Below are positions 24,317-31,065 of a stretch of DNA of 40,841 bases, in pieces (within the stretch, counting starts at the first letter, position 1; every line of letters begins with the position of its first letter). Source of the DNA: Halomonas sp. (GTDB taxonomy: Bacteria > Pseudomonadota > Gammaproteobacteria > Pseudomonadales > Halomonadaceae). The stretch spans positions 1 to 40,841 of the forward strand of contig NZ_JACUUD010000017.1 in assembly GCF_014859505.1 (NCBI RefSeq), in the 5' to 3' direction. The notes beneath the pieces are model-generated. The model did not search any database. It was not told where the DNA came from and saw only the letters and a program-made list of their open reading frames with translations. The position numbers were made by a program, and so were the translations under genes.

Positions 24317-25054
24317 TCAGGGGCGTTCCAGGGCCTCCACCACCCCCGGCTCGGCCCAGCAGTCGGCCTCGGCCTTGAGCTCCCTCACCCGTCGCTCCAG
24401 CAGCGCTCGGGTGGCCCGCTCAGAGGGGTGTTGCTCGCCGAAGTGCAGCGCCACCCGGGCGCGGAAGCGCCGCGGTCGACCACTCAGGGCCGGGCCATTG
24501 GCGTGAGAGGTCCAGGAGCCCCACAGCCCCGAGAGCCCTGCCGGAACCACCGGCACCGGGTCCCGCGCCAGGATCAGCTCCAGACCACGCCGGAAGGTAT
24601 GGATCTCGCCATCCGGCGTCAGGCGCCCCTCTGGGAAGAGCATCACCACCTCACCCTCGCGCAGGGCGCAGCTCACCTCATGAAGGGCGCGGCGCACATT
24701 GCCCGGGTCGTGGCGCTCCGACTCAACGGGAATCGCCCCCACCAGTCGGAACAGCCAGTTGAGCCAGGGCGAGTCGTAGATCGGCTTGTCCATCAGGAAG
24801 CGCAGCGGGCGCCGGCTGGCGCCGCCGATGACCAGGGCATCCATGAAGCTGACATGGTTGCAGACCACCAGGGCCGCCCCCCGGGAGGGGATATGGTCGG
24901 CGCCATGCAGGCGCAACCGGTAGACGAGACGCACCGTCAGGTACACCAGACAGCGCACAAAGGGACGCGGGCGGTGCGCCACCCGCCAGACCAGTGCCAG
25001 ACACAGACCGGCGAGCACTCCCCAGGCCACCACTCCCCACCCCGATACGATCAC
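24317..25054 (-). CDS. PlsC-like 1-acyl-glycerol-3-phosphate acyltransferase
   Basis: A 245-residue membrane-associated acyltransferase. An N-terminal hydrophobic helix (VVAWGVLAGLCLALVW) is followed by the acyltransferase block I CNHVSFMDAL (the HX4D catalytic motif), a GAIPVES segment, and block III FPEGRLTPDG. It most likely acylates lysophospholipid in phosphatidate synthesis or remodelling; the acceptor is unknown. The start is a GTG that overlaps the stop of the upstream TetR gene (GTGA), so the two are translationally coupled. An upstream open extension lies inside the TetR gene and is not plausible. Confidence 0.87.
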   Translation of the reverse strand: MIVSGWGVVAWGVLAGLCLALVWRVAHRPRPFVRCLVYLTVRLVYRLRLHGADHIPSRGAALVVCNHVSFMDALVIGGASRRPLRFLMDKPIYDSPWLNWLFRLVGAIPVESERHDPGNVRRALHEVSCALREGEVVMLFPEGRLTPDGEIHTFRRGLELILARDPVPVVPAGLSGLWGSWTSHANGPALSGRPRRFRARVALHFGEQHPSERATRALLERRVRELKAEADCWAEPGVVEALERP

Positions 25055-25668
25055 GTCTTGGCGGGCCTCGTCCTGAGGCCCGCCAGGATGGTGCGGAGCA
25101 GCTGGTCGAGCAGTTCCCCCACCTCCAACTGCTGGCCCTGCCAGTAGCCCAGGCGCTCGTTGAGCCCGAGCAGCACCAGGCCGTGGACGCTGCCCCACAG
25201 GGTGCGCGCCAGGCGGCGCGCCTCCAGGTCATCCAGCGCCGGCTGATACTCCTTCAGGGTCGCCTCCACGCGCAGAAAGAGTCCCTCGATCATGTCGCTC
25301 TGGCGCTGGTCCAGCTCGCCCTCCTGGGCCAGAGGGTAGTCGAACAGCAGCTGCCAGCGGTAGGCATCGCGCTGGGCAAACTGCCAGTAGGCACGCGCCA
25401 GGGCGGTGAGCCGCTGCTCCGGAGTGGCTTCGCTGGTCAGCGGCTCGATCACCTCGCGCAGGTGCGCCAGGGTCTCGATGTTGACGTGCTGCAACAGGTT
25501 ATTGAAGCTGCCGTAGAGCTTGAGCAGGGTGCTGGGCGCGCAACCCACCTCCCGAGCCAGGGCGCGCAGGGAGAGGGTGTGCACCGGATTCTCCTGCAGC
25601 CAGGCATCGCAAGCCGCCATGACCTGCGCATGGAGCGCCTCGGGGGCATGCTGTCTGGGACGGGCCAT
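25051..25668 (-). CDS. TetR/AcrR family transcriptional regulator
   Basis: A 205-residue one-component regulator. The N-terminal HTH (about residues 10-55, LSLRALAREVGCAPSTLLKLYGS) is typical; the C-terminal domain contains a WGSVHGLVLLGL motif resembling the TetR_C WHG group. Its GTGA coupling to the acyltransferase gene suggests they work together, for example in sensing fatty acyl or lipid status; that is inference. Upstream (25669-25888) no clear operator was identified. Target and ligand unknown. Confidence 0.9.
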   Translation of the reverse strand: MARPRQHAPEALHAQVMAACDAWLQENPVHTLSLRALAREVGCAPSTLLKLYGSFNNLLQHVNIETLAHLREVIEPLTSEATPEQRLTALARAYWQFAQRDAYRWQLLFDYPLAQEGELDQRQSDMIEGLFLRVEATLKEYQPALDDLEARRLARTLWGSVHGLVLLGLNERLGYWQGQQLEVGELLDQLLRTILAGLRTRPAKT

Positions 25669-25888
25669 GGTTTCCTCGCGAGCCTCGAACGGGCAGTTGC
25701 ATGACAGGACCGACGCGAAGTCGCACCGGCCCGGTGATCAAGGATAGCGCATTTCGAACACTGTTTTCGATACCCGCGCGCTCCTCTCCCGCTTTCCCTT
25801 GCTCTCCTTCCCGCACACAGGACACCCCGCCCTTTCCTCCACCCCTCCGCTTGGTTACCCTGAACGGCCCATCCCCTGCGGAGCGCCC

Positions 25889-26563
25889 ATGGCCGGACGA
25901 CTGCATATCGCCCCCCTCGACCTCGCGCGCCTGCTGCCGGAACTGACCGTCGACGCTCCACTCGTGACCAGTCCCAACCTGGCCCCGCGCCGCATGCTCT
26001 CGGCCATTCGCCTGGAGGCCGGCAGACCGCGTCTGGGCCGGCTGTTCTGGGGGCTTACCCCACCCTGGCTGGAGGTGCTCGACCACGCCCCCCACTGCGC
26101 CCGGGCCGAATCGCTGGAATCGCGCCCCATGTTCCGCGAGGCCTTCCAGGCGAGGCGCTGCCTGGTGCCGGCCAGCGGGATCTACGTCTGGAAGACCCAG
26201 CCGCGCTTCAAGCAGCCCTTCCTGATCACCCGCGTCGACCGCGGCCCGCTGCTGCTGGCAGGGTTGTGGTGCCGCTTCCATACCAGCCTGGCGGAGCATA
26301 CCGACTCCCTGGCGCTGATCACGGTACCGACCAATGGGCTCCTGGCGCCGCTCAGCGACCGCCTGCCGGCGGTGATCGACCCCGCCCGGGCGCGACGCTG
26401 GCTCGACCCCGAGACGCCCCTGGAGGAGGCCCGCGCCCTGCTCGCCCCCGCCCCGCGGGAACTGTTGGGCGCTTTCCCGGTATCAAGACGTGTGAACAAC
26501 CCCGCGAATCAGGACGCCGCCTGCGCCCACCCGGTCGGACCGATGCTGCGCCAGCCCGACTGA
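25889..26563 (+). CDS. SRAP (YedK/HMCES)-fold protein lacking catalytic residues
   Basis: A 224-residue SOS-response-associated-peptidase-fold protein. Fold motifs survive: MAGR start, FWGLTPPW (53-60), ARAES (71-75), CLVPASGIYVW (91-101), SDRLPAVI (156-163) and PVSRRVNN (197-204). Active SRAP proteins use Cys2 to crosslink abasic sites, with Asn75, Glu105 and His160 in E. coli YedK. By alignment these are Ala2, Cys70, Val100 and Ser156 here, so neither crosslinking nor proteolytic self-release is expected; the DNA-contacting Arg (Arg72) remains. The frame is intact and GGAG lies five bases before the ATG, so it is probably expressed. A longer in-frame start (25799) would add 30 unrelated residues. 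Function unknown. Confidence 0.85.
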   Translation: MAGRLHIAPLDLARLLPELTVDAPLVTSPNLAPRRMLSAIRLEAGRPRLGRLFWGLTPPWLEVLDHAPHCARAESLESRPMFREAFQARRCLVPASGIYVWKTQPRFKQPFLITRVDRGPLLLAGLWCRFHTSLAEHTDSLALITVPTNGLLAPLSDRLPAVIDPARARRWLDPETPLEEARALLAPAPRELLGAFPVSRRVNNPANQDAACAHPVGPMLRQPD

Positions 26564-26586: not shown

Positions 26587-29421
26587 ATGTTCCCTACCCC
26601 GACTGCCCGATGCTGCGGCCTGGCCGCTGCCGCGGCCCTGCTGATCGCCGGCCCCGCCGCGGCCGAGCGCCCCCTCGAGGCGGACGCCGTCGCCGAGGTA
26701 GCCACGCCGCTGGTCAGCCCCCATGACAGCCGCGACTACCGGGTGCTGACCCTGGAGAATGGCCTCACCGCCCTGCTGGTCAGCGACCCCGAGGCCGACA
26801 AGGCCGCCGCCTCCATGAACGTCTCGGTGGGCAGCGCCCAGGACCCCGAGGACCTCGCCGGCCTGGCCCACTTCCTCGAGCACATGCTGTTTCTGGGTAC
26901 CGAGCCCTTCCCGGAGTCCGAGGCCTACCAGAGCTACATCACGCGCCACGGCGGCAGCCATAACGCCTTCACCGCACCCCAGGACACCAACTACTTCTTC
27001 GACATCGACCCCGACGTCCTGGAGGGCGCCCTGGACCGCTTCAGCCAGTTCTTCGTCTCGCCGCTGTTCAACGCCGACCAGCTGGAGAGCGAGCGCAACA
27101 TCGTGCACTCCGAGTACATGGCACGCATCCGCGACGACGCCCGCCGCGAGAATGACGTGCTCAACGCTCTGCTCAACCCCGAGAACCCCACCACCGGCTT
27201 CTCCGTGGGCAGCCGCGAGACCCTGGCCGACCGCCCCGAGGGCGAGCCGAGCCTGCGCGAGCGGGTGATCGATTTCTACGAGCGCTACTACGACGCCAAC
27301 GTCATGCACCTGGCGCTGGTGGCGCCGCAGACCCTGGACGAACTCGAGACGCTGGTGGCGGAACGCTTCGCCGACATCGCCAACCGCGGGCTCGCCGCCC
27401 CGGAGATCACCGAGCCACTGGTGATCGACGACAGCCTGCCCCAGCGGGTTGCGCTGCAGTCGGTGCGCGACAGCCGCCAGCTGCGCCTGCTGTTCCCGAT
27501 CCCCGACCCCCTCGCCGAATATCGCCACAAGCCCGCCGACCTCATCGCCCACCTGCTGGGCCACGAGGGTGACGGCAGCCTGCTGGCGGTGCTGCGCCAG
27601 GCCGGCTGGGCCGACGGCCTCTCCGCCGGGATCTCTCGCAGCGACGGCCACCACGCCCTGTTCAGCGTCAACGTCAGCCTGACCCCGGACGGCGCCGAGG
27701 CCCGCGACGCCATCGAGGCGACCCTGTTCGCCGCCATCGAACAGCTCCGCGCAGGAGGCCTCGAGGCATGGCGCTACGACGAGAAGGCACGCCTCGCCGA
27801 GCAGGAATTCCGCTTCCAGCAGCATGGCGCGCCTCGCCAGGAGGCGATGCGCCTGGCCATGAACCTCTCGCGCTTCCCGATGGAGGACGTGCAGTACGCC
27901 GCCTACCGCATGGACGGCTTCGAGCGCGAGCGCAGCGAGACCTACCTCGACGCCCTGCGCCCCGATAACCTGATCCGCCTCTACAGCGCCCCGGACGTGG
28001 AGGGCGAAGACACCTCCCCCTGGTTCCACGCCCCCTGGCGGGAGGACGACAGCGGCGAAGCCACGGCGCTGTCCGGCCTGGCCCTGCCCGCCCCCAACCC
28101 CTATATCGCCGAGGACCTCGACCTGCTCGACGATCAGGACGAGCGCCCGCGGCAGCTGGTGGCGGAGCCGGCCTTCGACCTCTGGCACATGGCCGATGCC
28201 ACCTTCAACACCCCCAAGGTGGAGTGGCGCTTCAGCCTGCAGCACCCCGGTGCGGCCAGCTCCGCCCGGGAGGCCGCCCTGGCGCGCCTGCTCGCCGGCT
28301 GGCTGGATGACAGCCTCAACGAGGCCTTCTACCCGGCGCGCCTGGCCGGCCAGCACTTCGAGGCCTATGCCCACGCCCGCGGCATCACCCTATCCTTCTC
28401 CGGCTGGCGCGACCGCCAGGAGCAGATGATGGAGCGGGTACTCGAGCAGTTGCAGGTCGGCGAGGTGGACGACGCCAGCGTGGCGCGGGTGCGCTATCGC
28501 CTTCAGCGGGAGTGGCGCAACGCCCCCCAGGCGGCACTGCATCGTCAGGCCGGCCGCACCCTCGCCGAGGCGCTGGTCCGCCCCCAGTGGCCCAGCGCCG
28601 ACCTGCTGGAGGCGAGCCGGGAGCTGACCGCGGATGACCTGCGCGACTACCGCGACGCCCTGCTCGCCGAGCTGCGCCTGGAGGCCATGGCGGTGGGCAA
28701 CCTGGGTGCCGACGAGGCCGAGACCCTGGGGCGACGGGTCGCCGAGCGCCTGGCACCGAGCCTCGACGCCTCCGCCATTCCCGATCTCACGCCGCTCAAG
28801 GCCGACAGCGAGCTGCCCAGCCTGACCCCGCACACCAGCCGCGAGGAGTCGGTGGTGCTGCGCTACCTGCAGGGCCCCGACCGCTCACTGGCCAGCCAGG
28901 CCCGCCTGGCGGTGCTCGGCCAGCTGATCGACACCCCCTTCTACCAACGCCTGCGCACCGAGGAGCAGCTGGGCTACGTGGTCAACGCCGGCTACTCGCC
29001 GATGCTGGACGCCCCGGGGCTGGCGCTGCTGGTGCAGTCGCCGGACACCGAAAGTGCTTCGATCGATGCGCGCATCGACGCCTTCCTGGACGGCTTCGAG
29101 GAAAGCCTGGCGGCGCTGGACGACGAGGCCCTGGCGCCCTATCGCCGGGCGGTCCACGACCGCCTGACCCAGCGCGACACCAGCCTGGCCGGCCGCGCCG
29201 GCCGCCTGTGGCAGGCCATGTCCTTCGGTGACACTGACTTCGACCGCCGCGAGCGGCTCGCCGAGCGGACCCTGGCGGTCGACGCCGACGAGCTGCGCGA
29301 GCTGTGGCCTGACCTGCGCCAGGCGGCGGTGGCCCGGGTCGCCTTCGACCCGGGTGACAAGCCCGACGACGTACTGGCCCTGGCCCGGCATCTGGAGCCG
29401 CTGCCGGAAGTCGAGGAATGA
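26587..29421 (+). CDS. insulinase family (M16) pitrilysin-like zinc metalloprotease
   Basis: A large M16 peptidase of 944 residues, close to pitrilysin/PtrA length (about 960). Residues 1-27 form a signal peptide ending AAA, so it is periplasmic. The inverted zinc motif is HFLEH (His95, Glu98, His99) with the distal ligand Glu176 in VHSEYM, 77 residues beyond His99 as in pitrilysin. Three further M16 domains, degenerate as expected, fill the rest; EEQLGYVV near the end is the conserved substrate-site motif. ATG at 26587 has AGGAG six bases upstream. It starts 23 bp after the SRAP gene and may be cotranscribed. It likely degrades peptides. Confidence 0.93.
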   Translation: MFPTPTARCCGLAAAAALLIAGPAAAERPLEADAVAEVATPLVSPHDSRDYRVLTLENGLTALLVSDPEADKAAASMNVSVGSAQDPEDLAGLAHFLEHMLFLGTEPFPESEAYQSYITRHGGSHNAFTAPQDTNYFFDIDPDVLEGALDRFSQFFVSPLFNADQLESERNIVHSEYMARIRDDARRENDVLNALLNPENPTTGFSVGSRETLADRPEGEPSLRERVIDFYERYYDANVMHLALVAPQTLDELETLVAERFADIANRGLAAPEITEPLVIDDSLPQRVALQSVRDSRQLRLLFPIPDPLAEYRHKPADLIAHLLGHEGDGSLLAVLRQAGWADGLSAGISRSDGHHALFSVNVSLTPDGAEARDAIEATLFAAIEQLRAGGLEAWRYDEKARLAEQEFRFQQHGAPRQEAMRLAMNLSRFPMEDVQYAAYRMDGFERERSETYLDALRPDNLIRLYSAPDVEGEDTSPWFHAPWREDDSGEATALSGLALPAPNPYIAEDLDLLDDQDERPRQLVAEPAFDLWHMADATFNTPKVEWRFSLQHPGAASSAREAALARLLAGWLDDSLNEAFYPARLAGQHFEAYAHARGITLSFSGWRDRQEQMMERVLEQLQVGEVDDASVARVRYRLQREWRNAPQAALHRQAGRTLAEALVRPQWPSADLLEASRELTADDLRDYRDALLAELRLEAMAVGNLGADEAETLGRRVAERLAPSLDASAIPDLTPLKADSELPSLTPHTSREESVVLRYLQGPDRSLASQARLAVLGQLIDTPFYQRLRTEEQLGYVVNAGYSPMLDAPGLALLVQSPDTESASIDARIDAFLDGFEESLAALDDEALAPYRRAVHDRLTQRDTSLAGRAGRLWQAMSFGDTDFDRRERLAERTLAVDADELRELWPDLRQAAVARVAFDPGDKPDDVLALARHLEPLPEVEE

Positions 29422-29577: not shown

Positions 29578-31065
29578 TCAGTCGAAGGCCTGGGGCGGCA
29601 CGATCGCCTCGACGTGCATCACCAGCTCCTCGAGGACCTGGCGGTCGCGGTCGCTCAACGCCACCTGATTGAGTCGCTCGATCTCCCGGGCGAAGCCCTT
29701 TAGGGTAAGGCCGGCCACCGCCGAGTCGTTCATGCGCGCCCAGCGATAGGCCTCCCACTGGGCCAGCTCCTCGCCCTCCAGGGTCTCGGGGTAGCTGCGC
29801 GCCCGATAGCGGAACAGCATCTCCTCCAGGCGCGGGTCCTGGAAGGCGAAGCGTGCTCCCACCAGGTCCCAGGGGTCGGCGTCGCGCACCCGCTGCATCT
29901 GCTGGCGGTCGGCCGGGGAGAAGAAGCCCCCGGCGTAGAGCATCAGGTCGGGGTCCTCGGGGCCCGTCGGCGGCGGGTCGGCGAACACCTCGCTCACCCG
30001 GCGCGCCACTTCGGGGTGGGCGGCGAGGCGCTTCCAGTGCTCGCGACAGGCGACCACGTCCAGCCCGAGGCGGGCGACGATCTCGCCATACTCGCCCTGC
30101 TGAGGACCCTCCACGTCCTTGAGGGCGCTGGCGGGGAAGAGCACCGGGCACCTGTTGATGTGAATCACCTTGAGGGGAATGCGCTCCTCACCCTCGGCCA
30201 GGTCGTCGTTGCTGACGAAGACCCGCTGGCGGATCTGCTCGGCGGTGAGGTCGAAGAGCGGGGTCGGGTCCATCGAGAGGTCGTAGACGATGACCCCATT
30301 GGAATTGGTGGGATGCTCGGCCAGTGGCACCACCAGGGCGGCGCAGCCGCGGCTGGCAGGATAGCGGCGCGAGATATGCAGCACCGGCTTGCGACCCGGC
30401 ACGTCGAGCAGCCGGGCCACCGAACGCTTGCCGCGCAGCCCCAGAAGATAGTCGAAGAGCCTCGGATTGACCTCGCGCAGCCGCTTGGCCAGGGCGATGG
30501 TGGCACGCACATCGGCCAGGGCATCGTGGGCGCCCACGTGGGCGATGCCGTTGGCGGCGGTCAGGTCCTCGAGGCGAAAGCTCGGCGCGCCGTCCTCGCG
30601 GCGAGGCCACTCGATGCCTGACGGGCGCAGGGCATGGAAGGCACGCACCACATCGATCAGGTCCCAGCGGGAATTGCCGTTCTGCCACTCCCGGGCGTAG
30701 GGATCGATCAGGTTGCGATAGAAGAGGTGGCGGGTCACCTCGTCGTCGAAACGCAGGCTGTTGTAGCCCAGCACGCAGGTGCCGGGCGCACTCATCAGCG
30801 CCTCGATCTGACCGGCGAACGCCGCCTCGGGCAGGCCACGACGGCGCGCCTGCTGGGGTGTGATCCCTGTGATCAGGCAGGCCTGGGGATGGGGCAGATA
30901 GTCGTCGGCGGGCTTGCAGAACCACTCCACCGGTTCGCCGACCTCGTTGAAGTCGGCATCGGTGCGGATCGCCGCGAACTGGGCCGGGCGGTCACGGCGC
31001 GGGTCGGCACCGAAGGTTTCGTAGTCGTGCCACAGAAAGGTCAGCGGGGCAGCAGGCGGCGCCAT
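29578..31065 (-). CDS. sbcB: exodeoxyribonuclease I SbcB
   Basis: A 495-residue DEDDh-family 3'-5' exonuclease that degrades ssDNA during recombination and mismatch repair. The first exonuclease motif HDYETFGADPRRDRPAQFA (about residues 13-31) is characteristic, followed by ITGITPQQA, YNSLRFDDEVTRHLFYRN and HDALADVRATI with the catalytic His/Asp. A SH3-like and a C-terminal helical domain complete the normal architecture (E. coli 475 residues). ATG at 31065. Convergent with the M16 protease gene. The window also carries recJ, another ssDNA exonuclease, at a separate locus. Confidence 0.96.
   Translation of the reverse strand: MAPPAAPLTFLWHDYETFGADPRRDRPAQFAAIRTDADFNEVGEPVEWFCKPADDYLPHPQACLITGITPQQARRRGLPEAAFAGQIEALMSAPGTCVLGYNSLRFDDEVTRHLFYRNLIDPYAREWQNGNSRWDLIDVVRAFHALRPSGIEWPRREDGAPSFRLEDLTAANGIAHVGAHDALADVRATIALAKRLREVNPRLFDYLLGLRGKRSVARLLDVPGRKPVLHISRRYPASRGCAALVVPLAEHPTNSNGVIVYDLSMDPTPLFDLTAEQIRQRVFVSNDDLAEGEERIPLKVIHINRCPVLFPASALKDVEGPQQGEYGEIVARLGLDVVACREHWKRLAAHPEVARRVSEVFADPPPTGPEDPDLMLYAGGFFSPADRQQMQRVRDADPWDLVGARFAFQDPRLEEMLFRYRARSYPETLEGEELAQWEAYRWARMNDSAVAGLTLKGFAREIERLNQVALSDRDRQVLEELVMHVEAIVPPQAFD

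Follow-up and report, generated by a model that had tools for sequence, protein, structure and literature searches.

A SRAP-fold protein kept across Halomonadaceae without the residues of the abasic-site crosslink

YedK of Escherichia coli is a crosslinker of abasic (AP) sites in DNA and belongs to the SRAP proteins, whose second-residue cysteine is called absolutely conserved in the part of the source available to us (PMC3765255). In the accessible portion of a study of YedK chemistry, Glu105 is the residue that drives formation of the Schiff base, ring opening is aided by His160, and the N75A change affects internal AP sites only modestly (PMC9436759). The same portion reports that the C2A protein shows Schiff-base formation and AP-lyase activity in place of a stable crosslink while still binding AP DNA, bent in the same way, that the lyase rate is 0.002 for C2A E105Q compared with 0.05 for C2A, and that Cys2-blocked E105Q and H160Q proteins retain DNA binding (PMC9436759). 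In the literature searched, in which the coverage of subscription journals is small, we found no description of a SRAP protein without Cys2.

Here we analyse such a protein, encoded in a stretch of 40,841 nucleotides from Halomonas sp. (contig NZ_JACUUD010000017.1 of assembly GCF_014859505.1), hereafter the window. The original prediction, made from the letters of this stretch, held that all four catalytic residues of YedK are replaced in an otherwise intact SRAP protein, and that this pattern suggests selection for a non-catalytic role instead of decay.

Fold and catalytic positions

The gene occupies positions 25889–26563 of the forward strand, from an ATG start at 25889 to a TGA stop at 26561–26563, and encodes 224 amino acids beginning MAGRLHIA. 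A GGAG at 25880–25883 on the same strand is the likely ribosome binding site, and CGGAG-like sequence stands ahead of the ATG in most of the upstream regions inspected, as judged by eye and not by count. Both the intact frame with its putative ribosome binding site and the scaffold motifs MAGR, FWG, ARAES, SDRLP and PVSRRVNN are present as predicted. The protein belongs to the Pfam SRAP family (PF02586), which it matches with 145.1 bits (E 2.9e-42) against a cut-off of 27.1, and the sole NCBIfam model matched is PRK09951, the YedK subfamily, at 64.5 bits and so far below the model's cut-off of 349 bits. An AlphaFold model calculated with 12 relatives as input (pLDDT 92.4, pTM 0.91) has as its nearest solved fold the SRAP domain of human HMCES (5ko9, Z 27.3, rmsd 1.9 over 214 residues), and lies close to YedK (6kcq, Z 26.4, rmsd 2.2 over 208 residues) and to the Schiff-base complex of YedK C2A (8d2m, Z 25.9). 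Fifteen SRAP entries are listed in the structure search at Z 20.6–27.3, with the following rows at 2.4 or lower, and in the predicted structure the SRAP fold is intact.

Residues were mapped by a MAFFT alignment with E. coli YedK (NC_000913.3), and the four replacements fall where the original prediction had placed them: Ala for the crosslinking Cys2 (codon 2, GCC, 25892–25894), Cys at the position of Asn75 (codon 70, TGC, 26096–26098), Val at that of Glu105 (codon 100, GTC, 26186–26188) and Ser at that of His160 (codon 156, AGC, 26354–26356), all on the forward strand. None of the four residues that define the crosslinking enzymes is present, and we class the protein as a SRAP homologue, not as a SRAP enzyme. 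For these genes the names given by automatic annotation, "SOS response-associated peptidase" among them, are misleading.

The same pattern runs through the whole family, as a count over 128 family rows shows; these represent 127 distinct proteins, the window protein being counted twice, and from them L174 and L179, belonging to other families, were left out. Position 2 is A in 103 rows, T in 15, S in 6, P in 3 and V in 1; the absence of Cys2 here is partly due to sorting, because Met-Cys rows, being separate canonical copies, were removed before the count. Position 75 is C in 117 rows and I in 5, with a single row for each of L, A, M, S, T and V; position 105 is V in 81, A in 23, L in 12, I in 8, E in 3 and Q in 1; and position 160 is T in 62, S in 50, G in 11, A in 3, V in 1 and N in 1. 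Hence Glu105 is retained in 3 of 128 rows, and Asn75 and His160 in none of them. In these alignments the conserved feature is the loss of the catalytic residues and not one particular set, Ala/Cys/Val/Ser being one of many combinations, so that the conservation check proposed with the original prediction holds for the catalytic loss and fails for the exact residues. The free variation of positions 105 and 160 among small or hydrophobic residues is as expected of a pocket that no longer serves chemistry.

Conservation, constraint and distribution

The contrast between catalytic and other positions was examined in 33 columns that are at least 80% identical in 51 Cys2 rows, compared with 129 Cys2-less rows (the window twice and L174 included). 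The commonest residue differs in all four catalytic columns and in 2 of the 29 others, namely 84 (Arg in place of Ser) and 167 (Ile in place of Leu), giving a Fisher p of 3.7e-4; this becomes 2.0e-3 without position 2, the column by which the rows were sorted, and 0.011 when three drifting columns (91, 149, 152) are counted as changed. Between 97 and 100% of the weight is kept at G3, R4, N37, P40, W61, P65, W67, R77, R95, W106, R162, P164 and W175, in YedK numbering. R77, W106 and R162 are R72, W101 and R158 of the window protein, and presumably correspond to R98, W128 and R212 of HMCES, which we take to be DNA contacts.

The median dN/dS of the gene is 0.28 (quartiles 0.24–0.32, largest 0.52) among 81 genes of the genus and 2,900 pairs, calculated by the Nei-Gojobori method for pairs with dS of 0.1–1.2, which are not independent of one another. 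The corresponding medians for neighbouring genes are 0.15 for TetR, 0.19 for SbcB and 0.38 for PlsC. Given the conservation test and a dN/dS of about 0.28, the protein is retained under moderate constraint with its chemistry alone gone, and the gene, in its fixed place, is subject to purifying selection. Much of the original prediction thereby stands: close relatives with the same kind of substitutions occur throughout the family, dN/dS is not near 1, and change is confined to the catalytic columns, which together support selection over decay. Its term "non-catalytic" holds for the thiazolidine crosslink only; since Schiff-base formation and AP-lyase activity are both properties of YedK C2A, in the portion of the study available (PMC9436759), the free N-terminal alpha-amine may yet make a slow Schiff base.

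A match to P0001 is found in 247 of 250 genomes of the family, and the three exceptions (G106, G112 and G160) contain no SRAP match of any kind, so that the gene is dispensable in those genomes. PF02586 is matched in 90 of 90 genomes of the genus. The genome of the window itself (3.36 Mb, 99.79% complete, 272 contigs) holds a single match to PF02586, and the second, normal MCGR copy whose presence the original prediction had left to be checked is absent from this assembly. By a hand count, in which the place of the match is not listed for G060 and G064, 35 of the 90 genomes, the window's own included, have one SRAP match. Canonical Met-Cys copies are patchy in the genus, with up to eight SRAP matches in one genome (G042), and some SRAP matches in the genus carry internal stops.

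The Cys2-less group spans Halomonas, Billgrantia, Vreelandella, Modicisalibacter, Salinicola, Litchfieldella, Aidingimonas and others, and is found in Oceanospirillum, Marinospirillum and Terasakiispira as well. A further set of 80 loci was found with a pattern built from Cys2-less proteins and shares many genomes with the set of 101 flanked loci described below; because of that pattern, its 0 of 80 loci with Cys2 is not a frequency. One record in this material, L272, is titled as a Pseudomonadaceae metagenome-assembled genome, carries a Marinospirillum-type copy and gene order, and may be wrongly labelled. Outside the window's family Cys2 is the rule among the best-scoring loci read, being present in 18 of 20 in the order search, in 25 of 27 in the class search (of the other two, L240 has Leu2 and L226 yielded no start) and in 14 of 17 in family f37 (two lack it, and the start of L258 was not found). 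The Cys2-less exceptions outside the family are two f37 genera (L242, L243), one locus of genus g76, and L240. The last, at about 1501–2103 of G556 and outside the order, encodes a SRAP protein that starts MLGR, keeps Asn75 and has Thr at the position of Glu105, and is a separate case of Cys2 loss. No SRAP match was found in 44 of the 60 f37 genomes searched. With regard to mobile elements, no DNA match exists among 72,556 plasmid records, and carriage on plasmids was rejected on that ground; 52 phage records give a match, all below 60% identity, the eight listed being at about 31–35%.

Gene neighbourhood and regulation

The gene is flanked by a divergent TetR-type regulator (TetR_C_33 by Pfam; 25051–25668, reverse strand) and, directly downstream, by a pitrilysin-like M16 peptidase (by Pfam and NCBIfam; 26587–29421, forward strand) with a signal-like N-terminal sequence and an HFLEH that we take to be its zinc motif; an ATG at 26563, which overlaps the SRAP stop, may be its start instead. 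The order TetR, SRAP and M16, the first on the opposite strand and the SRAP copy lacking Cys2, recurs in 101 of 101 flanked loci of the family. The outer conserved neighbour is the convergent exodeoxyribonuclease I gene sbcB (29578–31065, reverse strand; PRK11779, 666 bits), seen in 95 of the 101, and the remaining six stretches may end short of it. SbcB, two genes away, is the only hint of DNA repair in the gene order. On the far side an acyltransferase frame, listed at 24317–25198 on the strand of the TetR gene, runs into that gene, and its true start probably lies further in.

In the 80-locus set SRAP is followed by M16 in all 80 and accompanied by TetR in 70, the ten loci without TetR being those of Oceanospirillum, Marinospirillum and Terasakiispira together with L272; a GGDEF-like frame, named by reading, lies upstream in L259 and L266, the two such loci inspected. 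Two f37 loci (L348, L349) have SRAP, M16 and SbcB in the same order as the window, and M16 stands beside 26 of 26 further short Cys2-less loci, as against 1 of 76 loci of other SRAPs, with a weak match (58 bits). Of 12 SRAP-less genomes tested, 11 have nevertheless kept M16, one of these with a weak match (51.6 bits), whereas G918 has none; SbcB is its neighbour in four or more of these genomes. In L383 M16 and SbcB, side by side, follow a DUF6586-like gene, and no SRAP was found in between. An obligate pair of SRAP and M16 is weakened by these cases, and because M16 persists where SRAP is absent the pairing may be an inherited order only. In the SRAP-less locus L382 (G106), TetR and M16 are still neighbours in divergent orientation, several hundred bases apart, an arrangement suggestive of an in-place loss of the SRAP gene.

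The region that separates TetR from SRAP contains a conserved 17-base near-palindrome, TCGAACACTGTTTTCGA (25754–25770), which is likely the operator of the TetR regulator. With at most two mismatches it is present in 82 of 101 upstream regions and in 0 of 101 shuffled ones; in the window's own genome the pattern gives one site (at most one mismatch) and a backward control pattern gives one as well, for which reason the case for an operator rests on conservation. A recurring block closer to the gene, CTTGGTTACCCTGA (25850–25863, forward strand), noticed by eye in many of 20 regions, may hold a promoter -10 element. The LexA box CTGT-N8-ACAG is absent from all 101 upstream regions, ten of which have it with one mismatch (raw counts), and the neighbours are TetR and M16 and not genes of an SOS operon; SOS control was rejected for want of a LexA box in these regions. 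Expression of the SRAP-like gene would be set by the divergent TetR regulator and the local promoter, jointly with the M16 gene, and not by LexA.

Origin, possible function and comparison with known systems

The relatives include SRAP proteins with partial loss. Genus g76 (family f21), which we take to be Pseudomonas-like, carries the g76-type SRAP throughout (59 of 59 genomes). The rows of this type have Glu at 105, either His or Gln at 75, and Cys or Ser at position 2, with Ser2 in 5 and Cys2 in 25 of 30 loci (in the range L339–L347, L351–L380); His160 is apparently lost, though the column lies in a gapped stretch where the letter is unsure, and likewise in L243. In this genus a GPAT-like acyltransferase lies ahead of the SRAP gene and an M48-type peptidase lipoprotein gene often follows it at varying distance (as in L342, 4763–6321), both named by reading. 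The Cys2-less rows of two f37 genera (L242, L243, L348, L349) have Ala or Thr at 2, Thr at 75 and Asp at 105; those of Oceanospirillum have Thr or Pro at 2, Leu, Ala or Ser at 75 and Glu at 105; and the Halomonadaceae rows have none of the four catalytic residues.

In a careful maximum-likelihood tree of 72 rows with chosen sampling and the four catalytic columns masked, the second of two trees, all Cys2-less rows join (99/95), the two f37 genera with Asp105 included, and these in turn join the g76-type SRAPs (98/90), with the canonical rows split off from them in 98% of bootstrap trees. In an earlier quick tree of 96 rows, which carried a long-branch warning, the three g76-type rows fell outside the Cys2-less group, at a weak support of 78. 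The residues at each stage suggest that Asn75 and His160 were lost first, then Cys2 (repeatedly within g76) and then Glu105; as the g76 link is present in one of the two trees, stepwise loss is kept as a working model. It is possible, albeit doubtful, that this was a dismantling within one lineage of the order in which every stage has survived (g76; Oceanospirillum with the two f37 genera; Halomonadaceae), the order of loss following the measured importance of the residues with Glu105 last. The g76 stage would have given up Asn75 and His160 while keeping Cys2 and Glu105; the Oceanospirillum and f37 stage, without Cys2 and with Glu105 or Asp105 kept, would resemble YedK C2A in its chemistry and might be a naturally occurring AP lyase; and the Halomonadaceae stage would be chemically silent, reading AP sites or junctions without reacting.

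What the Halomonadaceae protein does may be approached from the residues it has kept. We envisage a vertically inherited SRAP paralogue that gave up its chemistry: the four residues on which the formation, ring opening and stability of the AP-site crosslink depend are gone and the other canonical columns are kept, and the latter may still form a groove for single-stranded DNA or a single-/double-strand junction bent at the abasic site. Since the equivalents of R77, W106 and R162 are retained, we propose that the protein caps AP sites or junctions reversibly and non-covalently, as a reader or shield that would not lock on. This reading, a non-crosslinking binder of AP sites or single-stranded DNA junctions, we put at a probability of about 0.5. 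Against it count the lack of repair neighbours besides SbcB, the absence of a LexA box from the 101 upstream regions, the three family genomes that do without the gene, and a dN/dS above those of TetR and SbcB and below that of PlsC only. Given the YedK chemistry, the absence of Cys2, His160 and Glu105 should exclude a crosslink and makes a lyase unlikely. Slow lyase action at AP sites or transient formation of a Schiff base, in which the alpha-amine of Ala2 (Thr, Ser, Pro or Val in relatives) attacks AP sites after removal of Met1 and cleaves or briefly holds the DNA, is accordingly given a small share of our belief, although the YedK C2A protein behaves in this manner in the portion of the study available (PMC9436759) and its complex 8d2m is among the closest folds, and Glu105 is kept in 3 of 3 Oceanospirillum relatives with Asp in its place in the two f37 genera. 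Glu105 is needed for this activity, by the C2A E105Q rate in the same portion (PMC9436759), and in 124 of 128 rows its position holds V, A, L or I. All five residues seen at position 2 in the 128 rows, A, T, S, P and V, permit Met removal; we reason that this pattern is weak evidence, since most single changes from an Ala codon do so too.

A somewhat better case, still an unlikely one, can be made for re-use of the fold for another ligand, be it a peptide, a protein or a small molecule, for example as a partner or regulator of the neighbouring M16 peptidase. The M16 gene directly downstream in all loci of the 101, 80 (largely the same genomes) and 26 sets and almost never beside other SRAPs speaks for it, as does the dedicated-looking TetR site upstream; its persistence in SRAP-less genomes speaks against it, and so do, on reading, an M16 protein that looks exported beside a SRAP protein without signal sequence, and kept columns that are those of the SRAP DNA groove, judged by the HMCES contacts. 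It is very improbable that the protein regulates canonical SRAP copies in the same cell, through competition for AP sites or mixed oligomers: Met-Cys copies do occur in many genomes of the genus, yet the single SRAP match in 35 of 90 genomes makes such a partnership unlikely. That the gene is a decaying pseudogene, or that its start codon is misassigned or its sequence erroneous, is hardly credible at all. Such an origin could draw on a dN/dS somewhat above that of two of the three neighbours and on the three genomes that miss the gene, but the frame is open with a Met-x-Gly-Arg start across 128 rows, independent assemblies carry the same kind of start, and the family-wide pattern of substitutions, the conserved place and the dN/dS led us to reject it.

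That a selected form devoid of each of the four catalytic residues runs through the family shows that the SRAP fold serves some purpose besides the crosslink, and the Cys2-less SRAPs offer natural material for telling AP-site binding and crosslinking apart. Compared with the described systems, the window protein has in common with E. coli YedK the fold and the residues G3, R4, N37, P40, W61, W67, R77, W106, R162, P164 and W175, and differs from it in all of Cys2, Asn75, Glu105 and His160 and in its gene neighbours. The closest solved fold, the HMCES domain, has the N-terminal Cys and the catalytic Asn, Glu and His that the window protein is without, whereas equivalents of HMCES R98, W128 and R212 are, as we take it, kept. 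The g76 SRAP is like the window protein in being without Asn75 and, in this alignment, His160, and in having Ser2 in place of Cys2 in 5 of 30 loci; it is unlike it in keeping Glu105 in the rows read, in having Cys2 in the other 25, and in its GPAT-like and M48 neighbours. The likeness to the YedK C2A mutant (8d2m) lies in the fold and in Ala2, a small residue leaving a free alpha-amine; the mutant keeps Glu105 and His160, of which the window protein has neither, and with respect to AP-lyase activity the Cys2-less relatives offer natural counterparts of this mutant.
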